Assembly (NCBI GenBank): GCA_021740625.1
Contig: JAIOZK010000003.1
Location: forward strand, 62,001 to 126,000
Reading direction: 5' to 3'
Length of the DNA stretch: 64,000 nt
Source: Bacteroidales bacterium
GTDB lineage: Bacteria > Bacteroidota > Bacteroidia > Bacteroidales > JAIOZK01
The notes beneath the pieces were generated by a model that was not told where the DNA came from, searched no databases, and was given only the letters and a program-made list of their open reading frames with translations. Of this stretch, positions 5,496-32,877 are shown piece after piece. Position numbers and translations under genes: made by a program. The number at the start of each line of letters is the position of its first letter. Within the stretch, counting starts at the first letter, position 1.

Positions 5496-5602
5496 ACAAA
5501 GAAAGCAGAATAAAAGGTATTTGCGGGTCGCATGGGGCATGATTGGGTTTTGTTGGTTAATAGATTCCGGTCGGCACTTATTCAACCCCCTAATAATATT
5601 TA

Positions 5603-5619
5603 TTCTTACAATGTAAGAA
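5603..5619. promoter_or_regulatory. Perfect 17-bp palindrome, operator candidate
   Basis: TTCTTACA and TGTAAGAA flank a single central A. The symmetry and intergenic position suggest a dimeric regulator site, but no promoter box is obvious beside it and the controlled gene is not evident. Confidence 0.3.
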
Positions 5620-5786
5620 AAGTAACCCGCTTGGGTGAAATTTGGAATGGGTTTAAATTAGTTATTTGTATTTCGTCATTAATCATTCGACATTTGCCGG
5701 TTCCCTTCCAATAACAATACAAATCTTCAATCTTCAATCCTTAATCGTGGTTGGTTATTTAGATTGCATCCCCAATTCAATTTAAT

Positions 5787-6662
5787 TTATTGCTTTATCA
5801 ATTTGTAAACTAAAGGTTTGTTATTTAGGGTAACCAATTTTAGGAAATAAATACCAGGTGGGCCTTGAATATGTATGCTTTCATTGTAAAACTGATCAAA
5901 TTTAAAATATGCTATCTCCTGACCAAAACAATCAAGTACATGCATCATTGCGTTATCAATTCTTTTACTCGATTCTAATTTTACATTTCCTTTTGTTGGA
6001 TTTGGAAAAATATGTATACCAAATCCTGCATTTTCTTTCAAGAGAGTTGAACCTGTAACAAATGATAATTTAAACTGAATTGTATCATTATCAAGGTACC
6101 AGTTAAAAAAGAGATTATTCAGTTCATCACAATAATAATCCGTATTGCTGATGGTATCGGTAATATTGATAAATTCTGAAACGGAATCATACTTAATGCT
6201 GTATAAGTGTTTATAAGTTGGTGGTAGTATTTTGTGGAGGCGGCAACTGTCGTTGTAAAAGGTCGCAAAATATCCGATATCTTCATTTATAAAATAAAGT
6301 CCGTCCGGAGAAGATTCATCCCAACTATAATAGGGTAATGTTCCATGAAACTTTTCCCAGGTTTCCGCGTAGGTTTCAGTTTTTGCAATACCTCCATAAG
6401 CTTCCCGCACAGCTATAAAACCTGTTGAATCATTGATGAAGTGCATATGATACAGATAAAGGAAAGCATAATTGACTTCATCGTTGTAAACAAGTATTTG
6501 ATTTCGGTAAATATTAAATCCATATCTATGAGGGCTGGGGGAATAATTATGGTAAGTATAATGGTAATTTGATGTGCCGGAACAAGTATCACCTGTTATT
6601 TCAAATTGTCCATTGGAACTCATGTTGAAGATGCATAACAATAACACAGCAAAACTTCTCAT
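5787..6662 (-). CDS. Small T9SS type A sorting domain protein
   Basis: It encodes about 291 residues from the ATG at 6662; an in-frame TTG at 6686 is an alternative start. A signal peptide (MRSFAVLLLCIFNMSSNGQ) begins the protein. The body mentions no recognisable catalytic motif and is rich in Tyr, Asn and Asp. The C-terminal 75 or so residues carry the T9SS type A pattern: FPNPTKGNVKLES, then a short sheet-forming stretch, then PGIYFLKLV and the ending YKLIKQ. It is expected to be exported to the cell surface by type IX secretion. The gene stands apart from its neighbours, with about 150 bp on the DUF4837 side. Function unknown. Confidence 0.75.
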   Translation of the reverse strand: MRSFAVLLLCIFNMSSNGQFEITGDTCSGTSNYHYTYHNYSPSPHRYGFNIYRNQILVYNDEVNYAFLYLYHMHFINDSTGFIAVREAYGGIAKTETYAETWEKFHGTLPYYSWDESSPDGLYFINEDIGYFATFYNDSCRLHKILPPTYKHLYSIKYDSVSEFINITDTISNTDYYCDELNNLFFNWYLDNDTIQFKLSFVTGSTLLKENAGFGIHIFPNPTKGNVKLESSKRIDNAMMHVLDCFGQEIAYFKFDQFYNESIHIQGPPGIYFLKLVTLNNKPLVYKLIKQ

Positions 6663-6815
6663 CTGTGACAGATTTGATATGCTCAAATATACAAAATGAT
6701 GGCATAAGTGTTATAGTATTCAGGCTTTTTTAAGATACCTTAATTCAGCCTGATAAATAGGAAGGTATCTGTTGAAAAAAAAAGACCCCCAAACCAAACC
6801 AGCTGATTCCAATAA

Positions 6816-7826
6816 CTATTTCCCACTGTCCTTCTCCACAAACTTAAAACTGTCGATGATGGCCTCGAGCTGGCGCATCAGGTCGCGTTTTTCTTCGCTG
6901 GGAGCGTAAACGTAGGCATCGATGGTAAGCACTTTGTCTTGGCGCTGGTCGATGAGGGTGTAACTGATGAAAGGGCCACCCATGAAATCATTTTCCACTT
7001 TCCAGAGGCCTCTGACTTCCACTGCATAGTTGTCTTTAAAATTCAACTCGGCGGAAATGGGTAGGATCACATCCCTTGACACGATCATGTATGAACTGTC
7101 AGAGGGTCCCGGAATGTATGCTTTCGTGTAATAGTTCCGTTTGGATAAAATGTAATCGGGGTCGAAGGCCAGCGTATCTGTATAATTATAGGTATAAATG
7201 AGTAACCCCATGCCAAAAGCAAGTGTTTCCTTGCGCAGCCACATGAAGTTTTTAGATTCTTTTGCAATCCTGAAATCGCTGGGAAAAGTCATGTAAATAC
7301 CAAAGTTCTTTTTGAGGGCATTTGTTATCTTGCGGTTTTCCGTAGAGGCAAAAGCATTCTGAATTCTCTTATATTCCATTTGCAGGAAGAGATCCATAAT
7401 CTTTTCTTTGTTATCGTTAAATATTTTAAAGAAAGATTGCCTGTCCGGGGCGATGATCTTAACCACCCGCTGGGTGTTGGCCCAGATATCTGTCCTTGTT
7501 TCTATCGTAGCCTTTTTTGCTTCTTTGTCGATATCGATGATGAGGATGTTACGGTTTTTTTCATATACGGTGTTGAATGCTTCCATGGGAATGTTGACCA
7601 GGGTGAACATGGGTTCTGCCTGGGGTAGGATTTCCACTTCCTGGTAGAAAAAATCCATGATGGTATCTCCGATGCTGCTATTCCATTGTTGCTTGTTGTC
7701 GGTCACCACGACAATTTCTGAAGACTTGCCTACCGAATGAGGTTTGCCCGATTTTTCAACTTTGCATGATGTTAGCAGAAAGAAAATCCCCGTGATTAAA
7801 AAGAGGCCGTATGCAATCCTTTTCAT
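6816..7826 (-). CDS. DUF4837 family lipoprotein
   Basis: The protein of 336 residues opens with a lipoprotein signal peptide whose lipobox is LLTSC with Cys21, so it should be lipid-anchored. The body fits my recollection of the DUF4837 family common in Bacteroidota: a ...SSEIVVVTDNKQQW start to the mature domain, a central conserved WLRKETLAFGMG-like stretch and a C-terminal GPFISYTLIDQ region followed by EKRDLMRQLEAIIDSFKF. No enzymatic activity is known for the family. It precedes the LysM transglycosylase gene on the same strand with a 67-bp gap, so co-transcription from the upstream gene is possible. Length is normal for the family. Confidence 0.8.
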   Translation of the reverse strand: MKRIAYGLFLITGIFFLLTSCKVEKSGKPHSVGKSSEIVVVTDNKQQWNSSIGDTIMDFFYQEVEILPQAEPMFTLVNIPMEAFNTVYEKNRNILIIDIDKEAKKATIETRTDIWANTQRVVKIIAPDRQSFFKIFNDNKEKIMDLFLQMEYKRIQNAFASTENRKITNALKKNFGIYMTFPSDFRIAKESKNFMWLRKETLAFGMGLLIYTYNYTDTLAFDPDYILSKRNYYTKAYIPGPSDSSYMIVSRDVILPISAELNFKDNYAVEVRGLWKVENDFMGGPFISYTLIDQRQDKVLTIDAYVYAPSEEKRDLMRQLEAIIDSFKFVEKDSGK

Positions 7827-7893
7827 CTTGTTTGATTTTTGTGAATAAAGATATAAAAGGAAACGGAGTTGAAGACAATTTTATTGAGATGTC

Positions 7894-9540
7894 TTATCCA
7901 TTGACTGCAATTTTGATCTTTTGCCCAGGTTTTAATCGCCTGGTATTGCTGATATTGTTCAGTCTTTTGATCTGATCAACAGTTACCCCATCGTACATTT
8001 TTGCAATGTCCCAGAGAGTATCTCCCTGCCTCACTGTATAATAAAGGTATTTTTGTCCTTTTTCCAGCTCAGGCGTGCTTTCGGGTTTGTAAACGATCAG
8101 TTTTTGTTTTGGATGAATGACACTGCTGCGCAAGTTGTTCCATTCTTTCAGGTCGGTAACGCTGCATTTGTATTTTTTGGCGATCAGGCCCAGGTTCTCA
8201 CCGTAATTGACAGTGTGATAGGATTTTTCACCTGATCGTTTTACAGGAACAGATTTCCCACGGCTTGAATACCCTTCATTAAAAGGACTGTAAATGACCA
8301 GTTTTTGGCCCGGGTAAATGGTGTTTCCCCGCAAATTGTTCCAGCGTTTCAGTTGGCTGATGTAGCAGTGATAACGTTGGGCGATCAGGCCCAGGTTTTC
8401 CCCGTACCGTACCACATGGATCTGCCGGCTGTTGGCTTGTTCGATTTGTGCCAGGATTTTTTCCCTTTCCTGTCCGGAGGTGGATTTGTAATTGTACAAT
8501 GCCATTTCATTGTTGATAAAATCTCCGATATGTTTGTTGGGCAAGCGCAGCGGATAGGTTTTACCATCATATGCAGGAATGATCTCCTTTTTGTACATGG
8601 GATTCAGGAAACGCACAACTTCCGGGCTGATGCCCAGGAACTCTGAAATCTGGTCGAAGGCAAGGGGTTGCTTTACCGCAACGGTATCGATCTCATGGAA
8701 AAAAATGCCTGGTTCAATGGGATAAAGGTTGTGCTCGGGTGCATAATTCATCACATAAACAACAGCAGTAAAAGCCGGTACATAACCCCTGGTTTCACGC
8801 GGCAGGTAGGGCCAGACAGACCAGTAATTTTTTACATGGCCGGCCCTCCGGATGGCTTTGTTTACATTGCCTGCACCGGAATTGTATGCAGCCATGGCCA
8901 GCGACCAGTTGCCATAAATATCATAAAGATCCTGCAGGTGTTCGCAGGCAGCAATGGTGGATTTGAGCGGATCATACCTTTCATCGATCAGGGTGGTGAC
9001 ATTCAGGTTGTATACCTTTCCGGTGCCGTACATGAATTGCCAGATTCCCTTGGCACCGGCACGGGAACCTGCCCTGGGATTCAGGGCCGATTCTACGATG
9101 GCCAGGTACTTCAGTTCAAGAGGCATGTCGAAACGGTCGAGCTGTTCCTCGAACATTGGGAAATAAATTTCTGACAGTCCGAGCATCTTTGAAGTCAGCT
9201 CTCTTTTCTTAATTGCATAAAGTTCAATAAAACTCTTGATGGTATTATTGTAAGTTAATTCAATGGTGGTTTGATTGTTCAGTTCATTGATTCTGGTTTC
9301 GTATATCGAATCCGAATAGCGCGGAACTTCATCTTTTTTGAAGGCATATTTATTCAAAAGATTCGTATCGCTAATGAATTTGTAATCTCCGAAATAAGTA
9401 AGATGCACCAGGCTGTCAAGCATCACGGCGATTTGTGAATCCTCTGCAAAATCATTGCTTTTATTCAGTGAATCATTTTGAGCACTGGCAATTGTATAGA
9501 AAAGGCAGCAAATAATAGCAGTTGTGAGAAGTTTTTTCAT
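7894..9540 (-). CDS. MltD-like lytic murein transglycosylase with three LysM domains
   Basis: A 548-residue periplasmic or outer-membrane-associated enzyme expected to cleave peptidoglycan glycan strands, forming 1,6-anhydro ends. A signal peptide (MKKLLTTAIICCLFYTIASA) comes first. The SLT catalytic domain follows, with the catalytic Glu150 in LAIVESALNP and the hallmarks GAKGIWQFM and AAYNSGAGNV. Three C-terminal LysM modules lie near residues 373-418, 437-482 and 498-545 (for example VRYGENLGLIAQRY, VRQGDTLWDIAKMY), which should bind peptidoglycan. There is no lipobox, unlike E. coli MltD. A good TAACTTTG promoter box lies 56 bp upstream of the start. Confidence 0.92.
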   Translation of the reverse strand: MKKLLTTAIICCLFYTIASAQNDSLNKSNDFAEDSQIAVMLDSLVHLTYFGDYKFISDTNLLNKYAFKKDEVPRYSDSIYETRINELNNQTTIELTYNNTIKSFIELYAIKKRELTSKMLGLSEIYFPMFEEQLDRFDMPLELKYLAIVESALNPRAGSRAGAKGIWQFMYGTGKVYNLNVTTLIDERYDPLKSTIAACEHLQDLYDIYGNWSLAMAAYNSGAGNVNKAIRRAGHVKNYWSVWPYLPRETRGYVPAFTAVVYVMNYAPEHNLYPIEPGIFFHEIDTVAVKQPLAFDQISEFLGISPEVVRFLNPMYKKEIIPAYDGKTYPLRLPNKHIGDFINNEMALYNYKSTSGQEREKILAQIEQANSRQIHVVRYGENLGLIAQRYHCYISQLKRWNNLRGNTIYPGQKLVIYSPFNEGYSSRGKSVPVKRSGEKSYHTVNYGENLGLIAKKYKCSVTDLKEWNNLRSSVIHPKQKLIVYKPESTPELEKGQKYLYYTVRQGDTLWDIAKMYDGVTVDQIKRLNNISNTRRLKPGQKIKIAVNG

Positions 9541-11663: not shown

Positions 11664-11829
11664 ACACAAAATATTATTTAGGATCATTCTACATAATTGA
11701 TAGATTTTCTTTGATGATATCTGGCAATTTACTTATAGTCGAAAATAATTCAAACCTGTTGCAAAGCCAGTGCAACCCTTTTTTATGTTTTTGTGTCTAA
11801 AAATTGTTATTGCATAAAGCACAAAATAG

Positions 11830-11862: not shown

Positions 11863-11988
11863 TATTTGATGTTAAAAAATCAATGATTGATTTTGATCAT
11901 TGAATAATTTTTGTAATTTTACTTTCACGTATAATTGCGTAATAGAAGCCGTAAACCGGATTTATTTCATTAAATGCAAATGGCATAG

Positions 11989-12522
11989 ATGTCGTCTGAA
12001 AAAGAACTTATAAGGAAGTGCGTACAGAACGATTCTGAAGCCCAGGAGAAGCTATACAAGCTTTATGCGCCCAAGATGTTTGGAGTTTGCCTTCGGTATG
12101 CCAAGAATCATATGGAAGCCGAAGATGTACTTCAGGAAGGGTTCATAAAAGTTTTTGTGCATTTAAAGGATTACAGGAATGAAGGTTCTTTGGAAGGCTG
12201 GATAAGACGTACCATTGTCAACACCGCTATCAATTTTTACCGCAAAAGCATCAAAAGCAGCAAGGATATCGACATTGATGATGTCGAGATTTCCAATGCT
12301 GATGATGAAACTGTACTGGATCAGTTATCGACAAGGGAATTGCTGGATGCGATCCGCGAGCTACCCGATGGTTACAGAATCGTTTTCAACCTCAATGTGC
12401 TGGAAGGCTATACCCACAAAGAGATCGGGCAGATGTTGAATTTATCGGAAAATACGTCAAAATCTCAACTTTCGAGAGCACGGCAAGTTTTACAAAAAAG
12501 ATTGAAAAACTTGTTAAAATAA
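11989..12522 (+). CDS. ECF-type RNA polymerase sigma factor (cassette A)
   Basis: A 177-residue sigma-70 family factor of ECF size with only regions 2 and 4. Region 2 shows the core-binding and -10 recognition helices (EAEDVLQEGFIKVF, GSLEGWIRRTIVNTAINFY). Region 4 ends with the helix-turn-helix GYTHKEIGQMLNLSENTSKS. It should direct RNA polymerase to a small regulon, probably including its own cassette. It begins a three-gene set: the next start is 6 bp past its stop. It is clearly paralogous to the sigma gene at 15573, sharing AEDVLQEGFIKVF and EGWIRR. Regulation is likely by the membrane protein encoded next. Confidence 0.93.
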   Translation: MSSEKELIRKCVQNDSEAQEKLYKLYAPKMFGVCLRYAKNHMEAEDVLQEGFIKVFVHLKDYRNEGSLEGWIRRTIVNTAINFYRKSIKSSKDIDIDDVEISNADDETVLDQLSTRELLDAIRELPDGYRIVFNLNVLEGYTHKEIGQMLNLSENTSKSQLSRARQVLQKRLKNLLK

Positions 12523-12528
12523 AGAACA

Positions 12529-13791
12529 GTGAGCAAAGCATTCGAACATATCGATGAACTTTACAGGCAGCGCTTCAAAGATTTTGAAGCCGAGCCCCCC
12601 AATGAGGTATGGGGAAAAGTAAAGGATCACTTGCACCCTCGGGGTGGCGGACCTTCCAGTAATTTCGGAAGAACTTTCCTTTTAAGCATCTTCAGCATGA
12701 TGTCCATCATTGCCATCGTGTTCTTTGTTTTGAATCCTTTCAAAAATCCAAAACCAAGCCTTGCCTCGGGCGATTACATTGCTTACAACGGACAGGATCA
12801 GCAAGATAAGCTGAATAATACAAATCCGGTTTCTTCCATTGAAATAGCTACTCCGCTTGATGATAAAGCGGAAGCGCCCGCTCAAAAAGGAAACAAAGAG
12901 TCAGTACCTGCAAAAGAACCACTTGATGTAAAGAATACTGAAGAAAAACAAGTTCATTCAAAAGAACAACTCAATTCTCTTGAGCAAAAGAACAACATGG
13001 AATGGCAGTTTGTCAATCCGAAATTCAATTATCTCAACTCCAGGAGAAGCAGCCGGTTTGGCGCGAATGATAATTATTACGATCCAAAAGCCTCAAAAGG
13101 ATACTGGCAATTCGGTGCCTCTCTGAATCCCGAGATCGTGTTGTACCCCGACGACAGCATTAATAACAGCAGGAATTACAATCTCGACCTGAGTCTTAGT
13201 TATCACAAATCAAATTTCTTTGTAGAAACCGGATTGGGTATTTCCTTTGCCAGGGATGAAGGCCGCTACCTGGTGGATTATGAAAGCTACGAATATATGG
13301 GCTCATACAACGACCTGATTGGCATTACCTATGATTCTACCGAAACAGGTGTCATCCCGGTTTACCATTCAGAAGAGGTTGATATTTATGATTCGATCAG
13401 GCGGCTGAAAATTGAGAAATCGGTCAATACCTATACCTATCTGCAAATACCCTTGCTGATAGGATATGAGAAGAAATTCAAACGTTTTGGTTATTACTTC
13501 AAGGCCGGCCCCAACGTATCCATTTTGATCAATAAACAAATTCCGGGAACACAACTTTCCGGAGACATCAAAGTGTTTGACGTGGATGCAAGGATTGCCG
13601 AAAGGATCAAAACCAACTGGCAGATCCTGTTGGGTGCAGGCCTAACTTATCAAATGAGTAAAAATATGGATCTGGCACTTGAGCCTACTTTCAGGTATTA
13701 CCTGAATTCGGCTTACGACCGGAAATATGTATCAACCAAACATCCTTTTGCCTTTGGCATAAGAGCAGGAATAAAAATCAGGATAAAATAG
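12529..13791 (+). CDS. Membrane-anchored anti-sigma-like protein with outer-membrane-barrel-like C-terminus (cassette A)
   Basis: A 420-residue protein starting at a GTG 6 bp after the sigma gene. The N-terminus (1-50) is hydrophilic and has the pattern P23-x4-W28-x2-V31 shared with the two other sigma-linked membrane proteins in this window. One transmembrane segment lies at about 52-70, then a Lys/Glu/Gln-rich linker to about 165. Residues 195-420 form amphipathic strands resembling a porin-like barrel (PF13568 type): FFVETGLGISF, NTYTYLQIPLLIGY, YFKAGPNVSIL, FGIRAGIKIRIK. A cytoplasmic domain plus an inner-membrane helix would place the barrel-like part in the periplasm, or across both membranes. 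The likely role is sequestering the upstream sigma factor in response to an envelope signal; this is an inference. Confidence 0.75.
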   Translation: MSKAFEHIDELYRQRFKDFEAEPPNEVWGKVKDHLHPRGGGPSSNFGRTFLLSIFSMMSIIAIVFFVLNPFKNPKPSLASGDYIAYNGQDQQDKLNNTNPVSSIEIATPLDDKAEAPAQKGNKESVPAKEPLDVKNTEEKQVHSKEQLNSLEQKNNMEWQFVNPKFNYLNSRRSSRFGANDNYYDPKASKGYWQFGASLNPEIVLYPDDSINNSRNYNLDLSLSYHKSNFFVETGLGISFARDEGRYLVDYESYEYMGSYNDLIGITYDSTETGVIPVYHSEEVDIYDSIRRLKIEKSVNTYTYLQIPLLIGYEKKFKRFGYYFKAGPNVSILINKQIPGTQLSGDIKVFDVDARIAERIKTNWQILLGAGLTYQMSKNMDLALEPTFRYYLNSAYDRKYVSTKHPFAFGIRAGIKIRIK

Positions 13792-13801
13792 CATATAAGT
13801 C

Positions 13802-15445
13802 ATGAAACGGATTCTACACAGCAGCTTATTATTCAGGAAGGAAAGGAGGCGAAAACCAGGCTTCTCCAAGGCAGCAATAGCGCTGACCATGATTATGTTT
13901 TTTTCGATTAACATCTTGGTCGGCCAAAATTCCAATGAATACTTCTATATCCTTGGTCATGTTAAAAATGAGGCAAGCCTTGAACCTGTTGAATACCAGT
14001 TGATCTTTATCGAATCCGATTCCTCTTATGATATTCCTGATTATTTTTATGCTGAAATTTCAACCAATGAGAACGGTTTTTACAAAGTTACCGTTCCACG
14101 TCCCAGCAAAGATGTAGATTTCTTCGTGTATACCTATGATTGTAATAACCAGAGACATGATACCGTATTGCGCATATCCGAAGGTTTTATCAGTCAGAAC
14201 CAAAAGTATGTGGTTGATTTTGAAGTCTGCGAAACACAGTTGCTGAATTGCGAACCCAATTTCTTTTTCGAATATGATACCATTGGCAATGATCCGGAGG
14301 GGTATTATTACAACTTCACAGATGCCTCGGGTGATAATGTGAATTACTGGAAATGGGATTTCGGCGATGGCACCGAAACCCTGGGAGCCAATGCTTCGCA
14401 TGTATACGAAAAGCTTGGCGTTTATGAAGTCCAGCTTACCATCATGTCGAGCGATATCTTTGGCAACGGATGTACTGACAGCATCACAAAACTGGTGAAT
14501 GTGGGAGGATTCAATTATTATTACCTGGCTGGACAGGTTTTCAAACCCGATTATTTTCCTTTCGAAGAAGACGTAAATGTTTATTTATACAGAGTAGAAA
14601 ACGAAGAGATAATTCCGGTTGATACAACTGCGGTGCAGGAAGTGATGGGTTCAAATAATGAAATCATTTATGCTTATGCATTTCATTTTCTGATCGAAGG
14701 TGATTATATTGTCAAAGCCCAGTTAACATCCAACTCGGAATATTATGGGGAATTCATCCCAACCTATTATGGTGATGCGGTTTTCTGGAAGGAATCTGAA
14801 GTCATTGAACATCACGAAGACAATGAAAATTATGATATCAATATGGTTCCGGGCTATGATCTGCTTGGTGGAAATGGACACATAAACGGCAATATCAGTT
14901 TCTTTAATGAATTCAGCGACAATCAACCGGCTTTTAATGTAGAGCTTGTATTGTCCGATTCAATAGGCAACTATATAAAATACAATTATTCAAACGAAAA
15001 AGGGGAATTCCTTTTCAAAGAGCTGCCACATGGATTGTATTCTATTCAACCGGACTTGACCGGCTTCAACTGTGAACCGATCGAGGTTATGCTGGATGAG
15101 GAAAATCCTGTTATTGACAGTGTGATGATTGTGATCAATGGCATCGATACCAATACAGCCATACAGGAATATGAATCTGAATACGTGGACGCAATAAGCC
15201 AGGCATATCCCAACCCTGTGCGGCACAATGCACGAATTGATGTCAGCCTGAAGAAAAGCTCTGCATTTGAAATCGTCCTGTTCAATCAAATGGGTCAGAT
15301 GGTCCAGAGAGAAAGCATGTATCAATACAGGGGTGAAAATACCATTTCGGTAGATATGTCGCAATTGCCTTCCGGATATTATACCCTGCAATTGATTAGC
15401 CCCGACAGGATAGCTTTTACAACGAAGATCATCAAAAACCCTTAA
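13802..15445 (+). CDS. PKD-domain T9SS surface protein (cassette A)
   Basis: A 547-residue protein with a long positively charged N-region followed by a signal segment ending ILVGQ near residue 41. Next come a transthyretin/prealbumin-like domain, one PKD domain near residues 155-240 (YWKWDFGDGTETLG ... VYEKLGVYEVQLTI), a second carboxypeptidase-regulatory-like domain (GEFLFKELPHGLYSI) and a T9SS type A C-terminus (YPNPVRHNARIDV ... SGYYTLQLI ... KIIKNP). It is a probable surface adhesin or matrix protein exported by type IX secretion. It follows the membrane protein by 10 bp and is paralogous to the four-PKD protein at 17457, sharing the tract IEGDYIVKAQL/IEGDYMLKISL. A terminator follows. 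Confidence 0.85.
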   Translation: MKRILHSSLLFRKERRRKPGFSKAAIALTMIMFFSINILVGQNSNEYFYILGHVKNEASLEPVEYQLIFIESDSSYDIPDYFYAEISTNENGFYKVTVPRPSKDVDFFVYTYDCNNQRHDTVLRISEGFISQNQKYVVDFEVCETQLLNCEPNFFFEYDTIGNDPEGYYYNFTDASGDNVNYWKWDFGDGTETLGANASHVYEKLGVYEVQLTIMSSDIFGNGCTDSITKLVNVGGFNYYYLAGQVFKPDYFPFEEDVNVYLYRVENEEIIPVDTTAVQEVMGSNNEIIYAYAFHFLIEGDYIVKAQLTSNSEYYGEFIPTYYGDAVFWKESEVIEHHEDNENYDINMVPGYDLLGGNGHINGNISFFNEFSDNQPAFNVELVLSDSIGNYIKYNYSNEKGEFLFKELPHGLYSIQPDLTGFNCEPIEVMLDEENPVIDSVMIVINGIDTNTAIQEYESEYVDAISQAYPNPVRHNARIDVSLKKSSAFEIVLFNQMGQMVQRESMYQYRGENTISVDMSQLPSGYYTLQLISPDRIAFTTKIIKNP

Positions 15446-15470
15446 AAATTGATTCAATAAAATAATTCCA

Positions 15471-15501
15471 AAGCATTCTTCATTGGGAAGAATGCTTTTT
15501 T
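15471..15501 (+). terminator. Terminator of sigma cassette A
   Basis: A 10-bp perfect stem (AAGCATTCTT / AAGAATGCTT) with a 7-nt loop is followed by TTTT, 25 bp after the stop of the PKD gene. It separates cassette A from cassette B. Confidence 0.9.
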
Positions 15502-15572
15502 ATATTTACAAACCATACAAAATCAGGCAACCAAATAATTTATGGGATGTCTAAACAGTAGTTTTGTAATTG

Positions 15573-16136
15573 ATGATCTCCGATAAGAAAATAGTCGAAG
15601 GCTGTATTGCAGGCAAGCGCAAAGCATTCAATATGCTTTACAAAAAATACTCGGCAGTGATGCTGGCTGTTTGCTTGCGGTATTGCAAAAGCTATGAAGA
15701 AGCCGAAGACGTTTTGCAGGAAGGTTTTATAAAAGTATTTAATAATATCGGGAAGTTTAGAATGGATGGTTCATTCGAAGGATGGATCAGAAGGATCATG
15801 GTAAATACCGCCATCAATAATTATCATGCAAACCTGAAGTATTATTACCAGGAAAATGTTGATGAGATGGAAGAATCAAAAGATCTGGGAACCATCCGCA
15901 ATGAAGATGTCAAATACAACGGAAGACTGCCCAAAGAAAAACTAATGAGTTTGATACAGAGTTTACCGGATGGTTACAGAATGGTTTTCAATATGTTTGC
16001 TATTGAAGGATACTCCCACAAGGAGATTGCTGATATTTTGGAAATCTCGGTAAATACATCAAAATCTCAATTGTGGAAGGCACGCAGGACACTGAAAAAG
16101 CAAATCAAGGAACTGGAAAAGAAATACAATTATTAA
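15573..16136 (+). CDS. ECF-type RNA polymerase sigma factor (cassette B)
   Basis: A 187-residue ECF sigma factor. The ATG at 15573 is preferred over the TTG directly before it. Region 2 (EAEDVLQEGFIKVF, GSFEGWIRRIMVNTAIN) and region 4 (GYSHKEIADILEISVNTSKS) are intact. Parts are nearly identical in layout to the sigma factor at 11989, so the two arose by duplication. A TAGTTTTG sequence at 15559-15566 fits the -7 box, but it is only 6 bp from the ATG and has no clear -33 partner. The next gene starts 1 bp after its stop, so the two are translationally linked. Confidence 0.93.
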   Translation: MISDKKIVEGCIAGKRKAFNMLYKKYSAVMLAVCLRYCKSYEEAEDVLQEGFIKVFNNIGKFRMDGSFEGWIRRIMVNTAINNYHANLKYYYQENVDEMEESKDLGTIRNEDVKYNGRLPKEKLMSLIQSLPDGYRMVFNMFAIEGYSHKEIADILEISVNTSKSQLWKARRTLKKQIKELEKKYNY

Positions 16137-16137
16137 T

Positions 16138-17451
16138 ATGGCCACAAAGGATTTTAACAAACGGGAACATATCGATGATTACTTCAGGGACGCCCTGTCG
16201 GATCACAAGATCAGCCCCAATGCCTCAACATGGCGGGAACTCAGGAGGCAACAATGGGGGAAAAGTTACAGAAATACCTATATCAGCCTGGCGTTATTGC
16301 TGTTTGCTGCCGTTGCTGTTGTTGGTTATTTTTCGTTGTTTGAATCAGAAACAACTGATCCGATGCATAGTGAAAATAATATTATCCGGGATGAAGGCCA
16401 TCGCCCTGGAAAAGATATTGCTGCCGAGATTGCTGAAGCTCCCGTTGAGCAATCACAGGCAAAACATCAGGATCCTTTGCTGGAAGAGAAAAAATTAAAT
16501 GTACCGGAAAATGCCGGAATTGAAAACCCGGTATTGGCAGAGAATAATAATGCCGTTGAGCGTAAAAATGCTACTGCACAGATCATACAGGATGAAAATA
16601 TTTCGTTCTCAGTGGAGCCTGAAAGGAGGGATACTTACTGGATGTTTAAGATGAAAATGCTCAACATGGACATCAATCCCCCGCCTGGCAATGCAGGACA
16701 GATTGATCAACGATCAGGCGAGAAATTCAGGATCAACTTCAGGGATGATTATGCCCGGAAAGCAAATACCAGCCTTTCGCTCAATTTTACACCCGGTATC
16801 ACGTATTACAAATCCAAACCCCAGAAAAACTTTTACAGCTTTGATATCAGCGGTAATCTCGAATTGAGCCAGCGCCTTGCATTTGAACTCGGAGGCGGTA
16901 TTTACAGGGAAAAAGATAATGGTCGCTATCTTTTCAATTACGAAAGCTACGACAGCGTGGGATATTACATGAATGTTACATCTTATTTTTATGATGAAGA
17001 TCAGGATACAGTGATCCTGAACATGAAATCGGTCAATGTTTACGACAGCGTTGAACACATTACTGTTAGCAATACTTCAAATACATACACCTATTTTCAA
17101 ATACCCTTCGGATTGCGTTATCGCATGTTTGAATTCAGCAGGATTACCTTTTCTGTCAGGGCAGGTGCCATATTTTTGCTGATGATTGAAAAAGATATTC
17201 CGGAGGCAAACCTGAATATGGCAGGCGTTGAGCTGATTCATGTAGAAGATGAAACACCCGACAGGCTCAATACAGCCTGGAAATACTATGCTGCTGTACA
17301 GATTAGTTATCAGATGTCAGGCAATTTATTCCTGACGCTGGAGCCCGTGTACCAGCAGTATTTTGGTAAATTATACCGCAGGGATAATTTCACCGGTACA
17401 AAACATCCTTATTCAATAGGATTCAGAACCGGATTAACGTTTAAATTTTAG
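16138..17451 (+). CDS. Membrane-anchored anti-sigma-like protein with barrel-like C-terminus (cassette B)
   Basis: A 437-residue paralogue of the protein at 12529. The N-terminus has HIDDYFRDAL and P27-x4-W32-x2-L35, matching HIDELYRQRF and P-x4-W-x2-V in cassette A. One transmembrane helix lies at about 47-66, followed by an acidic, low-complexity linker to about 150. The C-terminal half carries the same barrel-like strands: NGRYLFNYESYDSVGYY, NTYTYFQIPFGLRY, ITFSVRAGAIFLL, YSIGFRTGLTFKF. The probable role is anti-sigma factor for the sigma encoded 1 bp upstream, with the extracytoplasmic part as sensor. The barrel-like domain could alternatively be a non-membrane beta-sandwich; sequence alone cannot decide. 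Confidence 0.75.
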   Translation: MATKDFNKREHIDDYFRDALSDHKISPNASTWRELRRQQWGKSYRNTYISLALLLFAAVAVVGYFSLFESETTDPMHSENNIIRDEGHRPGKDIAAEIAEAPVEQSQAKHQDPLLEEKKLNVPENAGIENPVLAENNNAVERKNATAQIIQDENISFSVEPERRDTYWMFKMKMLNMDINPPPGNAGQIDQRSGEKFRINFRDDYARKANTSLSLNFTPGITYYKSKPQKNFYSFDISGNLELSQRLAFELGGGIYREKDNGRYLFNYESYDSVGYYMNVTSYFYDEDQDTVILNMKSVNVYDSVEHITVSNTSNTYTYFQIPFGLRYRMFEFSRITFSVRAGAIFLLMIEKDIPEANLNMAGVELIHVEDETPDRLNTAWKYYAAVQISYQMSGNLFLTLEPVYQQYFGKLYRRDNFTGTKHPYSIGFRTGLTFKF

Positions 17452-17456
17452 ATGAA

Positions 17457-19739
17457 ATGATCAAAACCTACTACATAAAATTCCTGTTATATCTTGGCTT
17501 GTTGATGCTTCCTCTGGCCGGCCAGGCACAGTTGTATATTGCAGGAACTGTGAACGATGAAAAAACAGGGGAGGGCATCCAAAACAAGGAAGTTAACATT
17601 GTGATTAATGACTCCCTCCTGCTTGATCCTCCTTTAATCACCGACAAATACGGGCAGTTTAAAGACACCCTCATGTCCGATTGCAAGATCAGCAATGTAC
17701 GTGCTTTTGTTTACGACTGTAAATATGAGGCCAGGCAGGTTCTGATAAATAATCCCGGTAACATTGCTCTTTTTAATTTTGATATTTGCACAAATAACCT
17801 GATTCACGTAGAATGCGAAGCACACTATATCATAGAACCCGATTCAAACAATGCATTTAAATTCAAGTTTTATAATAAAAGCATAGAACCGGATACGAAT
17901 CTTTATTATAAATACCTCTGGGATTTCGGGGATGGAACTTTTTCAAGCGAAGAAAATCCAGAACACATATATGAAGAAAGCGGATTGTATACGGTTTGCC
18001 TGAGAATACAGGATACGCTCGGCAACTGTGATGACGAATTCTGTGCTCCCCTGCAGGTGCCATACCAGGGAGAATGCAACGCTTCTTACACATATACCCA
18101 GCAGGGCCCTAATCCCCTGAATTACCAGTTTATCGATCTTTCGTACGGAAATTATTATTCATGGGAATGGGATTTCGGTGACGGAAATACTTCCAACCAA
18201 CCCAACCCAATGCATGCTTTTGAAGAACCCGGGGCATATTTCGTATGCTTACGGATCCATGATCAGACGCTTACATGCGACGATACTTTTTGTGATACTG
18301 TTTATGTAACCGGTACAGTGCAATGCTATGCTGATTACACATATGAGATCGATACGAACGATACCCGGAAAGTTTATTTTACCGATCAGTCGCTCGGAAA
18401 CGTAACCCAGTGGGAGTGGGATTTTGGTGACGGAAACACTTCCAGCCAGCAGAATCCAACCCATAAGTATAATGAAAATGGTAGTTACGAAGTTTGCTTG
18501 TGGGTTTCGAATGATGATACGCTGAACTGTTATGACGTATATTGCAAAACCATCACTATTCAGAGTACCGTTGAGTGCAATGCCGATTTCAATGCACATG
18601 TCGATTCAACTTCTGCTGTTCAAAACCTGTTTTATTTTGAGGATATGTCGACCGGCAATATTACCGCATGGCACTGGGATTTTGGAGACGGAACCTTTTC
18701 CGATGAGTCAGATCCCACACATGAATACCAGGAAAGCGGTACCTATGAAGTATGCCTGACCATAACAGGCCCTGATGATTGTTCTGATACACATTGCCAG
18801 ACTGTTCAAACCCTGAAATATTTTGACCTGGGCGGCCTGGTTTTCGCCGGTGATTATCCATTGAATAACCCAGTGCCAACAGGTGATACAGGCATCGCAT
18901 ACTTGTACAAAAAATATCCTGATAATCTTCATATGGCAGTGGATACCTTCAGGTTTTATCATGGAGGTTATTACTGGTTCGTGAATATTATTGAAGGGGA
19001 TTATATGCTTAAAATTAGCCTGACAGAACATTCCAGCAGGTATGAAGAGTATTTCCCAACTTATTTCAGTGATGAACTCAACTGGGTTGAGACCTCGGGC
19101 CTTCCCCTCTGGGACAGTAATTATTACTCTGCCAATGTACATTTAACACCAACTGTTCCGCTTCCTGATGGAAATTGTATGATCAGTGGAAATGTGCACT
19201 GGTGTGATACCAGTCAGTTTTCTTCATCAATGCGGGGAAAGCTGAATAGGATCATGGTGATGCTGGCAGATGAGTCAGATTCACCCTTGAAATATACTCA
19301 TACGGATCAATACGGGCAGTTTTCATTCAACGGATTGCCGAATGGTCATTACCGTATTTTTGCTGAAATGGCTGGTATGTACTCAACAGTTGAAAATATC
19401 GACCTGGAGAGTAATAACCATTTTTCAGGGGCTGAAATTGTGCTTTGTGAAAGCGAGATCATCGGTATTCCTGAAAACAATGAAGCGGATTTGCCACTGA
19501 TCAAATTGTATCCGAATCCTGCATCAGATTTTGTAAATTTAGAAGTAAAGAAAGTTTTTAAAGAACGCTTGTTTTTCTCGCTCTATAATTTGCTGGGTGC
19601 AGAAGTGCACAGTATGTCAATCGAAACAGAATCAAGCAGGCAAATTGAGCTGAACGGCATGCAGGATGGAATTTACTTTTACAGGATCAGCAATGAAAAC
19701 AATGAAGTAATTGTTACGGGTAAGATCATCAAAAACTAA
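17457..19739 (+). CDS. Four-PKD-domain T9SS surface protein (cassette B)
   Basis: A 760-residue protein with a signal peptide (FLLYLGLLMLPLAGQAQ), an N-terminal prealbumin-like domain, four tandem PKD domains at about residues 120-460 (each with WDFGDG) and a linker homologous to the cassette A protein (IEGDYMLKISL, YFPTYFSDELNW). A second prealbumin-like domain (GQFSFNGLPNGHYRIF) and a T9SS type A C-terminus (YPNPASDFVNLEV ... GIYFYRIS ... KIIKN) complete it. Each PKD repeat carries conserved cysteines: one at its start (EC/QC), one in VCL and a C-x(4-6)-C pair at its end. This suggests disulfide-stabilised modules. The expected role is surface adhesion. It ends the cassette; a structured 3' region follows. 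Confidence 0.85.
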   Translation: MIKTYYIKFLLYLGLLMLPLAGQAQLYIAGTVNDEKTGEGIQNKEVNIVINDSLLLDPPLITDKYGQFKDTLMSDCKISNVRAFVYDCKYEARQVLINNPGNIALFNFDICTNNLIHVECEAHYIIEPDSNNAFKFKFYNKSIEPDTNLYYKYLWDFGDGTFSSEENPEHIYEESGLYTVCLRIQDTLGNCDDEFCAPLQVPYQGECNASYTYTQQGPNPLNYQFIDLSYGNYYSWEWDFGDGNTSNQPNPMHAFEEPGAYFVCLRIHDQTLTCDDTFCDTVYVTGTVQCYADYTYEIDTNDTRKVYFTDQSLGNVTQWEWDFGDGNTSSQQNPTHKYNENGSYEVCLWVSNDDTLNCYDVYCKTITIQSTVECNADFNAHVDSTSAVQNLFYFEDMSTGNITAWHWDFGDGTFSDESDPTHEYQESGTYEVCLTITGPDDCSDTHCQTVQTLKYFDLGGLVFAGDYPLNNPVPTGDTGIAYLYKKYPDNLHMAVDTFRFYHGGYYWFVNIIEGDYMLKISLTEHSSRYEEYFPTYFSDELNWVETSGLPLWDSNYYSANVHLTPTVPLPDGNCMISGNVHWCDTSQFSSSMRGKLNRIMVMLADESDSPLKYTHTDQYGQFSFNGLPNGHYRIFAEMAGMYSTVENIDLESNNHFSGAEIVLCESEIIGIPENNEADLPLIKLYPNPASDFVNLEVKKVFKERLFFSLYNLLGAEVHSMSIETESSRQIELNGMQDGIYFYRISNENNEVIVTGKIIKN

Positions 19740-19896
19740 AAAATATGCCGGACAAGGCAACCTTTGTTCTTTACACATGTCTTTGCAATGTGTTTCTTAT
19801 TAGGGAATAACAATTACAAAACTGAACTAAAAAGAACACTTTACACAACAACCAGTAGTTTACATTTTGATGTCTTGGACATGGAAAGCTGTGTTT

Positions 19897-19990
19897 AACG
19901 AAGCCAAAGAGTTCTAGTATCTTACAAAATGCTTCGTTGACCAATTTTCAGAATTGCTGCACGAACCCGGGCGAAAGTCCGGGTTTTTTT
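19897..19990 (+). ncRNA. Candidate small RNA or structured 3' UTR
   Basis: In the 249-bp gap after the four-PKD gene, an 8-bp perfect inverted repeat (AACGAAGC at 19897-19904, GCTTCGTT at 19931-19938) is followed 26 nt later by a strong terminator. Hairpin plus terminator, well separated from the stop codon, could be a small RNA or the 3' end of the operon transcript. A near-match promoter (TACATTTTG, one base longer than TAnnTTTG) lies near 19861. No known RNA family was recognised. Confidence 0.3.
19964..19990 (+). terminator. Rho-independent terminator for rightward transcription
   Basis: The stem AACCCGG / CCGGGTT with an 8-nt loop is followed by a run of T. It overlaps the last bases of the leftward queD-like gene, so it ends rightward transcripts from sigma cassette B before they become antisense to queD. 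Confidence 0.85.
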
Positions 19991-20438
19991 ATTCATTATC
20001 ATCTGCAAACCATTCAGCGTAAGAGGTAACGGTCTCCCGTATTTTCAGGCTATGAAGCTTCACCCCCCTGGGTAATTTTTCTCTGATCCGGTTTACAAAG
20101 TCGATCAGGTAATTTTCCGTTGTTGGCTGGTAAGGTGTGACAATCACCTTCTCATAATTCTTTTTCAATTCGTTGATATGCGCCTGAGCAGTATGATGAC
20201 TGATCACCAGAGCGTGATCGAATTCATTGATGATTTGTCCCTTGACCAGAGCTTTCAGGTCTTTGAAGTCGATTACCATGCCTTTTTTGGGTGAGTCTTT
20301 TGAGGCAATGGGTTCTCCGATCACCGTTACGAATAATTCATATGAATGCCCGTGAATATTTTTGCAGGGCCCGTCATAACCCAGCAGGGCATGTGCCATC
20401 TCAAAATTGAATTGTTTGGTAAGTCTTATGTTAGCCAT
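19989..20438 (-). CDS. queD: 6-carboxytetrahydropterin synthase (QueD-like)
   Basis: A 149-residue member of the PTPS/QueD family. It is expected to convert 7,8-dihydroneopterin triphosphate to 6-carboxy-tetrahydropterin in queuosine/7-deazaguanine synthesis. Zinc ligands are His16, His29 and His31 (MAHALLGYDGPCKNIHGHSY), and Cys25 is the catalytic cysteine position. The C-terminal ET(V)TSYAEW stretch fits the substrate-binding glutamate region. Other queuosine genes are not nearby. It is last in a leftward group, 11 bp after the MntP-like gene. Family substrate differences (PTPS versus CPH4 synthase) cannot be settled by eye; in bacteria QueD is the usual role. Confidence 0.88.
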   Translation of the reverse strand: MANIRLTKQFNFEMAHALLGYDGPCKNIHGHSYELFVTVIGEPIASKDSPKKGMVIDFKDLKALVKGQIINEFDHALVISHHTAQAHINELKKNYEKVIVTPYQPTTENYLIDFVNRIREKLPRGVKLHSLKIRETVTSYAEWFADDNE

Positions 20439-22910: not shown

Positions 22911-23192
22911 CGCTAAATATAATTTGGTTCATGAATAAATGACTTAATAAAAGGTGTGATTTTTATTTAGGCGATGGGATGATAGCTGTCCCGGTCCTTG
23001 ATGTTAAGGAAAATGTATTCCTTCTGTATTTTCGACAATCTGATCAAAAGGGCTTGAGTTTCATTCGATAACAAAATTAGAAAAAATTTTGAAGATGAAA
23101 AGCATAATCCTGATAATGATCTGTTAACATACTGAAACAAAGCAGTTTTTTTCTAAATTGCAACCCTTTCAAATTCCTTTTGTCATTAGTAA

Positions 23193-23765
23193 GTGAATGT
23201 AAAACAACAGAAATCGGCTGAGGTGCAGACGGATATCCACAGAGATATTATAGAAAGCAGTAAGCAGGGGAACCTGAAGGCACAGTATAAGTTGTACCAG
23301 CTTTATGCAAAAGCTATGTACAACATAGCCTGCAGGATGATGAACAGACGGGAAGCGGCCGAGGATATTTTACAGGATGCATTTACAGATGCCTTTCATC
23401 GATTGCATACCTTCCGGTACGAATCAAGTTTCGGAAGCTGGATAAAACGCATCGTGATCAACAAATGCATCAACGAGATCAAAAAGAAGAAAGCTGATCT
23501 GGAGTTCTTTGACGAGATGGGATGTTTTGAGAATGAGCAGGATACGGATGAGGGAGATTATGAGCAAGGACTGTCGGTGGCCCATGTAAAGAAAGCCATG
23601 GAAGTTCTGCCTGATGGCAGCCGCATGATCTTTTCACTCTATCTGCTGGAAGGATATGATCACCGGGAGATTGCCCAGATCTTGAATACCAGCGAATCGA
23701 ACTCCAAATCACAATATATGCGTGCAAAGCGACGGGTAAAAGAAGTACTAAAAGAAATGATATGA
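23193..23765 (+). CDS. ECF-type RNA polymerase sigma factor (third locus)
   Basis: A 190-residue ECF sigma factor starting at a GTG; stops lie directly upstream in frame, and no good ATG exists before region 2. Region 2 shows EAAEDILQDAFTDAF and SSFGSWIKRIVINKCINE. Region 4 shows EGYDHREIAQILNTSESNSKSQYMRAKRRV. It overlaps the anti-sigma gene by the ATGA type, implying coupled translation. It is more distant from the two cassette sigma factors than those are from each other. It probably controls the surface-protein operon that follows it. Confidence 0.93.
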   Translation: MNVKQQKSAEVQTDIHRDIIESSKQGNLKAQYKLYQLYAKAMYNIACRMMNRREAAEDILQDAFTDAFHRLHTFRYESSFGSWIKRIVINKCINEIKKKKADLEFFDEMGCFENEQDTDEGDYEQGLSVAHVKKAMEVLPDGSRMIFSLYLLEGYDHREIAQILNTSESNSKSQYMRAKRRVKEVLKEMI

Positions 23766-24334
23766 AAAAGGATAAACTGGAACAATTTGTCAGCAACAAC
23801 CGCGAAGCTTTTGATGAATTGAAACCTGATCCGAAGATCTGGAAAGGGATTCAAAATGATATGCAGCCTCCAGGGAAATTGCACTGGAAAAGGATCCTAT
23901 GGCGGGCGGCTGCCGTGCTGGTCATTTTTACGGCTTCATATTTCTTTCACGACCTGGTGAATCAGGATACGGCAAACAATAGTATTGTCCAACATGAAGA
24001 GGCCGATCCGGAAAGCCTTGACCAGGCAAAAACTTTCATCGAAGCCGAAGCTTATTATACTTCACAAATCGGGACCAAAAAGAAAGAAGTGTATCGCATT
24101 GCCGGGAAAAACAGCTCCGTTGCAAAAGAACTTGATGTGGAATTTGATGAACTCAACCAGGTTCTTAAGGAACTGAAAAGAGACCTGAACGACAATGCCT
24201 CAAACACTGAGGTGCTGGAAGCTATGATACAGAACTACCGCCTGAAACTGATGATCCTTGAGGAAATGCTATCGCAACTGAATGAATCGAAAATCGCAAA
24301 TGAAGAAAGGGAAAACGATGAATACGAGCTGTAG
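23762..24334 (+). CDS. Anti-sigma-like single-pass membrane protein
   Basis: A 190-residue protein that overlaps the sigma gene's stop by 4 bp (ATGA). The N-terminal 40 residues are cytoplasmic in character and carry P22-x4-W27-x2-I30 (ELKPDPKIWKGIQ), the motif also seen in the two other sigma-linked membrane proteins of this window. A transmembrane helix lies at about 43-62 (AAAVLVIFTASYFF). The extracytoplasmic half is strongly charged and probably coiled-coil (FDELNQVLKELKRDLND, LKLMILEEMLSQLNES). It is expected to hold the sigma factor inactive at the inner membrane until an envelope signal arrives. No zinc-binding HxxxCxxC motif is present. Confidence 0.8.
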   Translation: MKKDKLEQFVSNNREAFDELKPDPKIWKGIQNDMQPPGKLHWKRILWRAAAVLVIFTASYFFHDLVNQDTANNSIVQHEEADPESLDQAKTFIEAEAYYTSQIGTKKKEVYRIAGKNSSVAKELDVEFDELNQVLKELKRDLNDNASNTEVLEAMIQNYRLKLMILEEMLSQLNESKIANEERENDEYEL

Positions 24335-25418
24335 ATCTATTTTCGTCCTGGGCATCTTTGGCCTGCTGGCGCTCAATACCATGTCGCAGGATTTTGAAAA
24401 AAGCCGGAACCTGGAAAAGACTTTCCCCCTCAAGACCGGCACCGAGATCCGTATTATCAATAAATACGGAAATATTCACCTCATGAACTGGGAAAAGGAT
24501 TCTGTTAAATTCGAGATCGAGATGCAGGTGAGTGCCAACAAAATGCACAAAGTTGATAAAGTATTTGAAAATATTGGTTTTGACTTCACGGCAACTAAAT
24601 ACTATATCATTGCACAGACTGTTTTTAACAATGAATCATCATACTTTTGGCGTGAAATCTCTGATTTTGCCAATATGCTTTTTAAGGGAGGCTCGCAGGC
24701 CAGCATCAACTACACTGTGTATTTACCGGATGTTAACAGCATTGATATCCAGAACAAATTTGGAAATGTTTATACCGGAAATCATACCGGCGACTTCAGA
24801 TTGACCCTTTCCAACGGAGATTTCAGGGCCAACCATATTGAAAATGCCTCTCTGCTGGATCTTGACTTCGGAAAAACTACAATCAACTCACTGGAAAACG
24901 GCCGGATTGACCTGGGTTATGGTGACCTGGATATCAAAACAGCCGGGAAACTCAATGTTGTCAGCAAGTCCTCTACCCTCCTCATTGAAGAAATAAATGA
25001 ACTTGACCTGGATTCCCGCAGGGATAAAATATATATCAGCTCCTTGTCAAAACTGAACGGGAAGTCTTCATTTTCTTATATCAATATAAAAGAACTCCAG
25101 CATGAAGCCATAATGAATTCAAGTTATGGTGATCTGAATATCGACAAACTAAATGCTTCTTTCCAGTTGATCAATTTCATTTCCGAATACACCGAAATCC
25201 AGCTGGGAATCCCAGAAAAGGCATATTATGATGTGGAAATCAACTACAACAGGAAAACATACATGGTGCTTCCACTAAGCATGGAGCCACTGGGCCGAAA
25301 GCAGGTGGGAACGGATGAGGAATATGTTATCAACGGAACGATCGGTGAGGAAGAAAGTCCTGCTTCCCTGCTCAAAATATCAGTTGTGGCAGGTTCCCTG
25401 CAAATTTTTGAAAATTGA
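24300..25418 (+). CDS. DUF4097-type beta-strand repeat surface protein
   Basis: About 372 residues from the ATG at 24300, overlapping the anti-sigma gene's end by 35 bp; the ATG at 24318 is an alternative. A signal peptide (SIFVLGIFGLLALNTMSQ) leads it. The body is a series of short, regularly spaced strands of the DUF4097/adhesin type (GTEIRIINKYGNIHLMNW, IQNKFGNVYTGNH, SSYGDLNIDKL), predicting a beta-helix or beta-solenoid. It is probably periplasmic or surface-exposed. It is in the third sigma operon, ahead of the head-GIN lipoprotein, an arrangement I recall as common in Bacteroidota. The molecular role is unknown. Confidence 0.75.
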   Translation: MKKGKTMNTSCRSIFVLGIFGLLALNTMSQDFEKSRNLEKTFPLKTGTEIRIINKYGNIHLMNWEKDSVKFEIEMQVSANKMHKVDKVFENIGFDFTATKYYIIAQTVFNNESSYFWREISDFANMLFKGGSQASINYTVYLPDVNSIDIQNKFGNVYTGNHTGDFRLTLSNGDFRANHIENASLLDLDFGKTTINSLENGRIDLGYGDLDIKTAGKLNVVSKSSTLLIEEINELDLDSRRDKIYISSLSKLNGKSSFSYINIKELQHEAIMNSSYGDLNIDKLNASFQLINFISEYTEIQLGIPEKAYYDVEINYNRKTYMVLPLSMEPLGRKQVGTDEEYVINGTIGEEESPASLLKISVVAGSLQIFEN

Positions 25419-25467
25419 TTGCAACCCTTATTCAAGTGAAGTGTCATTAATGGTAAAAGCTGAAAAA

Positions 25468-26190
25468 ATGAAATTAAAAGCCATATTTCCGATCATTGGA
25501 TTATTCCTGATAGCAATGCTATACACGGCCTGTGAAAAATCGCTTCGCTGCATCGACGGAAAAGGCAAGCTTGTCAATGAAGACCGTGGATCTACTCCTT
25601 TCAGCCGTGTGCTCCTTGAGGGGTCCATGAACCTGGTGGTGATACAGGACAGCATTACGAACGTTACCGTAGAAGCGGAATCGAACCTGATGCCTTATAT
25701 CTCCACCCGGGTGATCAACAATCTTCTGACTGTTGATTTGAATGGCACCAAATGCCTTGACAACAACTACCCGGTCAGGATCGTAGTCAGAACACCCGTG
25801 CTGAATGCTGCCGGTATCGAAGGCTCGGGCGATATCTTGATCAACGATTTCTATAATGGAAGCATGAATATGGAAATCAGCGGAAGCGGTAATATCCATG
25901 CCGGATTGTATGTTAATACTGTAAAAGCAGGCATCAGCGGTTCGGGTAACATTACAATATCGGGCACTGCAGATGCAGGGGAATACAGCATCAGCGGTTC
26001 GGGTTCGGTACAGGCCTATGATATGGCCCTGAAAAAGTGTTATGCAAATATTTCAGGTTCAGGAAGCATGTTTGTAAACGCCCGGGATTTGCTGGATGTG
26101 GTAATTTCAGGAAGTGGTTCGGTATTTTATAAAGGGAATCCCCAGGTTATCACGAATATTTCAGGATCGGGATCGGTCATTCACAGATAA
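25468..26190 (+). CDS. Head-GIN domain (DUF2807) lipoprotein, putative autotransporter adhesin
   Basis: About 240 residues from the ATG at 25468; an in-frame ATG at 25450 is also possible, and longer frames would run into the preceding gene. The lipobox MLYTAC with Cys22 predicts a lipoprotein. The mature part is the head-GIN domain with six repeats of I-S-G-S-G (for example EISGSGNIHAG, GISGSGNITIS, SISGSGSVQAY, NISGSGSVIHR) that form rungs of a beta-helix. It is expected to be an outer-membrane-anchored adhesin or envelope-stress-linked surface protein. It is co-directional with the sigma/anti-sigma pair, 49 bp after the DUF4097 gene. Confidence 0.85.
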   Translation: MKLKAIFPIIGLFLIAMLYTACEKSLRCIDGKGKLVNEDRGSTPFSRVLLEGSMNLVVIQDSITNVTVEAESNLMPYISTRVINNLLTVDLNGTKCLDNNYPVRIVVRTPVLNAAGIEGSGDILINDFYNGSMNMEISGSGNIHAGLYVNTVKAGISGSGNITISGTADAGEYSISGSGSVQAYDMALKKCYANISGSGSMFVNARDLLDVVISGSGSVFYKGNPQVITNISGSGSVIHR

Positions 26191-29317: not shown

Positions 29318-29355
29318 TGACATGTCAAATGAACAATGAAATCATTTCCCCTTCC

Positions 29356-29363: not shown

Positions 29364-29385
29364 CATAAAACCAAAACAAATTCAG

Positions 29386-32864: not shown

Positions 32865-32877
32865 CATTTAACAAGTA

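Follow-up and report, generated by a model that had tools for sequence, protein, structure and literature searches.

Tandem ECF sigma factor cassettes with predicted Dma-type anti-sigma factors and putative T9SS-sorted partner proteins in Bacteroidales

Two three-gene units lie head to tail

The window analysed here, a 64,000-nucleotide stretch of a Bacteroidales genome, carries two three-gene units at 11989-15445 and 15570-19739, arranged head to tail on the + strand and sharing the order ECF sigma factor, anti-sigma-like barrel protein, PKD-containing T9SS protein. The genes and the features that accompany them are:

11772..11797, + strand: A-type ECF promoter, GCAACC-N17-GTC, 217 nt before sigA
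11892..11922, + strand: possible vegetative (TTTG / TANNTTT) promoter in the A leader, with a box common in A leaders
11989..12522, + strand: sigA, ECF sigma factor of the A clade
12529..13791, + strand: antiA, predicted Dma-type anti-sigma factor with a GTG start (from AlphaFold2, Foldseek and Pfam OMP_b-brl_2)
13802..15445, + strand: pkdA, T9SS-sorted protein with an N-terminal domain, one PKD, a two-CnaB Dma-partner domain and a CTD
14510..15166, + strand: two-CnaB "Dma-partner" domain of pkdA (alignment A5; model pLDDT 92.8; CnaB/SdrD folds)
15471..15502, + strand: terminator-like hairpin plus T-run between the two operons, read from the sequence as AAGCATTCTTC-ATTGG-GAAGAATGCTT-TTTT
15527..15551, + strand: B-type ECF promoter, GCAACC-N16-GTC, 43 nt before sigB
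15570..16136, + strand: sigB, ECF sigma factor of the B clade; TTG at 15570, the likelier start being the ATG of the next codon, 15573
16138..17451, + strand: antiB, predicted Dma-type anti-sigma factor
17457..19739, + strand: pkdB, T9SS-sorted protein with four PKD, a two-CnaB domain and a CTD
18822..19496, + strand: two-CnaB "Dma-partner" domain of pkdB (alignment A5)
19757..19781, + strand: orphan B-type promoter, GCAACC-N16-GTC, 18 nt beyond pkdB and not followed by a gene
19963..19991, + strand: terminator-like hairpin behind the orphan promoter (sequence and folding)

Pfam finds sigma-70 regions 2 and 4 in both sigma factors, and PKD plus Por_Secre_tail in both third proteins; OMP_b-brl_2 is matched in antiA, while the antiB match falls below threshold. 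TIGR04183 and PF18962 score above their curated cut-offs in pkdA and pkdB, identifying a C-terminal sorting domain (CTD) in each. The twofold order proposed in the initial annotation of this DNA was confirmed at these coordinates and was found again in every relative region read; because it recurs in this way, it is far beyond chance. The same annotation had the paralogues aligning in every position. Paralogy is indeed significant for all three pairs: sigA and sigB are 47% identical (E 3e-56), antiA and antiB 25-31% (E 1e-36), and pkdA and pkdB about 28% across the C-terminal 390 residues (E 1e-31). The wording was nevertheless too strong for genes 2 and 3, since these diverge strongly outside the motifs.

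The middle proteins are predicted to have the Dma layout

We modeled antiA with AlphaFold2 on a 25-member alignment. The model opens with helices at residues 8-15 and 25-35, predicted with modest confidence (block means about 60-76), and the alignment reveals a conserved IDxLFR..PPxxVW motif in this N-terminal anti-sigma part of Dma-like proteins. In both model and alignment these helices are followed by a single hydrophobic, TM-like helix at 45-68. A long tether of about 120 residues (69-187) is predicted to be disordered, with pLDDT below 50, and the C-terminus (192-420) forms a beta-barrel with pLDDT of about 84-98 that, in Foldseek, most resembles OmpA/NspA/OmpX-type barrels (best E 2.7e-09). 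An anti-sigma domain, TM helix, disordered tether and barrel also make up the Dma anti-sigma factors of Bacteroides thetaiotaomicron, whose genes lie beside ECF21 sigma genes (PMC13088901). On the strength of domain layout and ECF-sigma adjacency, by which we assign the class, the middle proteins are predicted Dma (dual membrane-spanning anti-sigma) proteins; each would bind the sigma factor encoded next to it and span both membranes. Weaker matches to the Dma alignment (A4) occur in other Bacteroidia. The earlier description of an anti-sigma-like N-terminus, one TM helix and a barrel-like C-terminus stands, as do, by position and layout, the pairing with the sigma factor and the predicted anchoring by the barrel, but it had missed that the class was already known.

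A two-CnaB domain is the constant element of the third protein

What is constant in the third protein is a 210-residue domain just before the sorting signal, whereas the PKD repeats vary (present in 86/96 third genes). This domain was modeled as two beta-sandwiches with a mean pLDDT of 92.8, and it resembles the CnaB/SdrD-type domains of Gram-positive pilins and adhesins. Pfam catches mainly its second half, and does so weakly in several members. In the source genome the domain occurs at four places, always immediately following one of the four Dma genes, and nowhere else. The two further Das/Dma/T9SS cassettes of this genome lie at L078:1719-5540 and L079:5229-10745; in the latter, the third gene has no PKD, and other repeat-like regions precede the two-CnaB domain.

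At ten loci, each beside a Dma cassette (L136:9989-11096, L135, L138, L139, L142, L150, L152, L154, L070 and L147), a short anti-sigma protein of about 190 residues is fused to the first half of the two-CnaB domain, with E values from 1e-11 to 4e-20. These short proteins have the related N-terminal region and a TM helix, and the CnaB half then takes the place of tether and barrel, a topology that puts it in the periplasm rather than outside the cell and so speaks against the partner reading set out below. The sigma genes preceding them cluster in the tree, where they are tentatively placed beside the A clade. When a domain is encoded separately in one arrangement and fused in another, a functional link is classically implied. 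The two-CnaB domain belongs to a separate secreted protein in the cassettes, and half of it to an anti-sigma protein at these ten loci, which indicates such a link with the anti-sigma factor. The third protein most likely serves the Dma barrel as a dedicated partner or feedback ligand, which would contact it through the two-CnaB domain. This shifts the earlier label of "adhesin" towards a signaling partner: the constant element is tied to Dma genes and fused to anti-sigma proteins elsewhere, and the same co-occurrence and fusion weaken the idea of a generic PKD adhesin.

The cassette recurs across the order, and the tandem is old

The synteny search that the initial annotation had proposed showed the three-gene order to be kept. 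Among 119 genomes of the same order (the source genome included), 19 contain strong relatives, and all 18 of the 18 regions read consist of a sigma gene, a Dma-like gene and a T9SS gene. Another 70 loci came from scanning named genomes and belong almost entirely to uncultured Bacteroidales and related MAGs; as the scan was seeded by a narrower A-type alignment (A6), these loci are biased towards the A-type. Counting distinct Dma frames, a sigma gene lies directly upstream of 99/102, mostly with overlapping frames, and a homologous two-CnaB T9SS gene lies directly downstream of 96/102; contig ends or a split frame account for most of the exceptions. One B-type Dma gene (L110:8832-10164) is split into two overlapping frames of 237 and 238 aa, likely by a frameshift or an assembly error. 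Nearly all of the third genes encode a CTD (94/96). In a set of 247 genomes from the order, 65 of 75 strong Dma genes have the partner domain at most 5 kb downstream on the same strand, and the other ten have none within 5 kb at the thresholds used. In 296 genomes sampled from across the phylum, matches outside the source genome were weak for both Dma and the partner domain, so the cassette in its present form is mainly a feature of Bacteroidales.

Trees of the sigma factor, the Dma protein and the partner domain, built from 77 promoter-typed cassettes, each split cleanly into A and B without a single sequence on the wrong side (support 1.0, 0.97 and 0.83, respectively). Two units in the order A then B occur at 19 loci, in 16 of which both spacers could be typed. 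Given these clean splits and the recurrent A-B order, the tandem is an old duplication of the whole unit whose copies have been kept together; the same two observations rule out a recent tandem duplication.

ECF promoters precede the operons and differ in spacing

The window contains three matches to GCAACC-N15-18-GTCT where chance predicts 0.30, and three were never reached in 100 shuffles. Among the relatives, GCAACY-N16/17-GTC stands ahead of 84 of 98 sigma genes but only 22 of 705 control genes from the same loci. The 14 sigma genes without a strict promoter are mostly divergent and include those of the two further pairs of the source genome. Spacer length follows the clade throughout, with 17 at 45/45 A-clade sites and 16 at 40/40 B-clade sites. 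From this segregation we predict that promoter spacing keeps the A and B units apart.

The initial annotation had proposed that the first gene controls the third, and this conjecture is strengthened by the conserved ECF promoter before a tightly packed operon. Because the first gene of such an operon has a promoter that co-varies with the sigma clade, control of the whole operon, third gene included, by its own sigma factor is well supported, if not proven. In tandem-type A relatives the same promoter type lies at -165 to -257. The leaders of such A units also tend to contain a second element: a TANNTTT(G or AC) box is present in 27 of the 28 A leaders that have a distal ECF site, compared with a mean of 6.8 and a maximum of 13 in shuffles. 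Since this box is of vegetative type, these A units probably combine a basal with an inducible promoter.

A-type sites also precede a second porU and other T9SS genes

Pattern searches of the source genome found 19 GCAACC-N16/17-GTCT sites, compared with 7 for a reversed control, and for the GTCTAA version 5 compared with 0. Beyond the cassettes, the genes that start shortly after an N17 site include a second porU (NF033707, 1207 bits), the genes for an M14-peptidase T9SS protein and for two further T9SS proteins, and a gene that we take to be DUF3276-like. As the genome encodes at least 150 T9SS (CTD) proteins, chance alone should put some T9SS genes behind promoter-like sites, and other ECF sigma genes (e.g., the one at 23193) share the GCAACC -35 element, so that some of the assigned targets could be theirs. 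The porU site recurs in relatives: a strict N17 site lies close before the second porU in 4 of 13 genomes (G000, G084, G103 and G258), and a GCAACG version does so in G001, G110 and G165, bringing the count to 7 of 13 if this variant, accepted after seeing the sequences, is included. None of the first porU copies read has an N17 site. Tandem porU sortase genes are found on the minus strand at L081:1252-5070 and 5114-8926, the second of them behind an A-type ECF promoter. The cassette-bearing genomes searched usually have two porU copies, and one copy was found in each of three genomes without a cassette match (G024, G025 and G026).

In Flavobacterium psychrophilum, transcript mapping has shown that porU and an ECF/anti-sigma operon share an ECF-type promoter class (PMC9723704). 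For the cassettes, the A-type sigma factor probably also switches on the second PorU sortase and some T9SS cargo, a putative regulon read from promoter sites. The earlier view of a self-contained module switching on one adhesin is accordingly not supported in that form, as the same promoter type precedes other T9SS genes, above all the second porU, both here and in relatives.

Downstream of the tandem

Behind the orphan B-type promoter, a gene may have been lost from the interval 19757-19991. At four other loci (L060, L070, L146 and L154), a further two-CnaB T9SS gene is found behind a B-type promoter downstream of the B unit. We considered and rejected a small RNA gene at 19786-19991: in 119 relatives the DNA is conserved only as short fragments, the fold z-score of -2.8 with the terminator drops to -0.2 without it, and a match to Rfam MicX is far below the gathering score.

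A third sigma gene lies at 23193-23765, with a GCAACC-N16-GTC site at 23160. It is followed by a barrel-less, coiled-coil putative anti-sigma protein of 190 aa and then by two further secreted proteins, and the arrangement (window 23160-26190) is retained in a genome of the same genus (L069). Also near the cassettes is a run of peptidase genes (M64, M49 and S46; window 29308-35279), and A cassettes in L062, L064 and L067 are flanked by genes that, by eye, resemble this run.

Discussion

Gene order, domain layout, promoter conservation, spacer segregation, and the co-occurrence and fusion of the two-CnaB domain were all computed directly. Building on them, we think it probable that each unit is an autoregulated signaling operon of the Das/Dma type in which the third protein acts as a partner, and that the A sigma factor tunes the T9SS surface. 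In such an operon, the N-terminal helices of the anti-sigma protein would hold the sigma factor in the cytoplasm, the TM helix would cross the inner membrane, the disordered tether would cross the periplasm, and the small barrel would sit in the outer membrane. A surface change sensed by the barrel would free the sigma factor, which would then transcribe its own operon from GCAACY-N16/17-GTC, yielding more sigma factor, anti-sigma factor and T9SS-exported surface protein. The third protein would act on the barrel as partner or feedback ligand through its two-CnaB domain, and the A-type sigma factor would raise the second PorU sortase together with some T9SS cargo, so that the module adjusts the T9SS surface. 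A more specific version, which we regard as tentative, is a closed loop that monitors the T9SS itself: the exported two-CnaB protein would bind the Dma barrel and lock the sigma factor, failed export or anchoring would free it and thereby raise the second PorU, cargo and the reporter, and the A and B loops would be insulated by spacer length.

The main competing reading is that of the initial annotation, in which the third protein is a surface adhesin merely switched on by the sigma factor, with no part in sensing. Its position in the operon and its T9SS CTD would suit such an output, PKD and CnaB/SdrD folds typically belong to surface stalks and adhesins, and the downstream genes of the Dma2 operon are strongly induced, yet their deletion leaves the vesicle phenotype unchanged. 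We nonetheless consider a pure output unlikely, given that the two-CnaB domain accompanies Dma genes one to one in the source genome and nearly so across the order, that an anti-sigma protein elsewhere carries half of it, and that the adhesin-like PKD part is the variable one while the two-CnaB domain is constant. It is less probable still that the cassettes act like Bacteroides Dma1/Dma2, mainly on outer membrane vesicle release or on polysaccharide-utilisation genes, with an incidental T9SS link. The predicted architecture is the same as that of Dma, and the abundance of CTD proteins noted above would place some T9SS genes behind promoter-like sites by chance; but a T9SS gene belongs to the operon in nearly every case, while the Dma2 operon has unrelated downstream genes, and the promoter of the second porU is kept in several genera.

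Two further possibilities concern the middle protein. It might fail to bridge both membranes, either because it is cleaved or because its resemblance to anti-sigma factors is accidental. The modest model confidence of the anti-sigma helices and the predicted nature of the localisation leave some room for this, but we judge it improbable in view of the sigma gene that lies directly upstream in nearly all cases, mostly in overlapping frames, the homologous N-terminus of barrel-less sigma-linked proteins, and the Dma precedent (PMC13088901). Surface signaling of the FecIR/TonB type, with a sigma factor, a FecR-like anti-sigma factor and a receptor barrel, would likewise combine an ECF sigma factor, a membrane anti-sigma factor and an outer membrane barrel. 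Here, however, the barrel belongs to the anti-sigma protein itself and is small and OmpA-like, and neither Pfam nor NCBIfam detects a FecR or TonB-dependent receptor domain in any cassette protein, on which grounds we reject this very improbable reading.

The closest known relatives are Das2 (BT_1559) and Dma2 (BT_1558) of B. thetaiotaomicron, where an ECF sigma gene is likewise followed by the gene for an anti-sigma/TM/tether/barrel protein (a layout predicted in our cassettes), and where das2 and the other genes of its operon are strongly induced once Dma2 is lost (PMC13088901). A three-gene operon is shared as well. Strong induction of the own operon upon anti-sigma loss is established for Das/Dma, whereas autoregulation of the cassettes is predicted from their promoters. 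The downstream genes set the two apart: those of the Dma2 operon encode DUF4943, DUF4858 and an enzyme-like protein, whereas the cassettes encode a T9SS-sorted two-CnaB/PKD protein that is homologous across loci. The cassettes further differ from Das/Dma in forming an old A-B tandem, in having distinct promoter spacers, and in their candidate targets, which include porU and T9SS cargo.

The PorXY-SigP system of Porphyromonas gingivalis is similar to the regulation proposed here in that an ECF sigma factor controls T9SS genes and a CTD surface protein, PorA, acts upstream of it (PMC4800418, PMC7712824), PorA feeding the pathway from the surface (PMC7712824). SigP, however, is coupled to a two-component system, with no barrel-anchored anti-sigma factor described there; its published motif differs from the GCAACY-N16/17-GTC of the cassettes, and the cassettes contain neither porX nor porY. 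The SM6 promoter class of F. psychrophilum is alike in that porU, gldN and an ECF/anti-sigma operon are preceded by an ECF-type -10 box (PMC9723704), but it forms one class to which no sigma factor has been firmly assigned, and no tandem cassette or third gene has been described for it.

Our best reading is that the cassettes belong to the known Das/Dma class as a variant whose dedicated T9SS partner and link to the T9SS are undescribed in the literature we found. New are the two-CnaB domain beside Dma genes, the fusion of half of it to an anti-sigma protein, and the A-type promoters before a second porU in several genera. The Dma literature we found names no signal sensed by a Dma barrel. The operon described here supplies a candidate, namely its secreted third protein, the conserved domain of which accompanies Dma genes and, in relatives, is fused to an anti-sigma protein.
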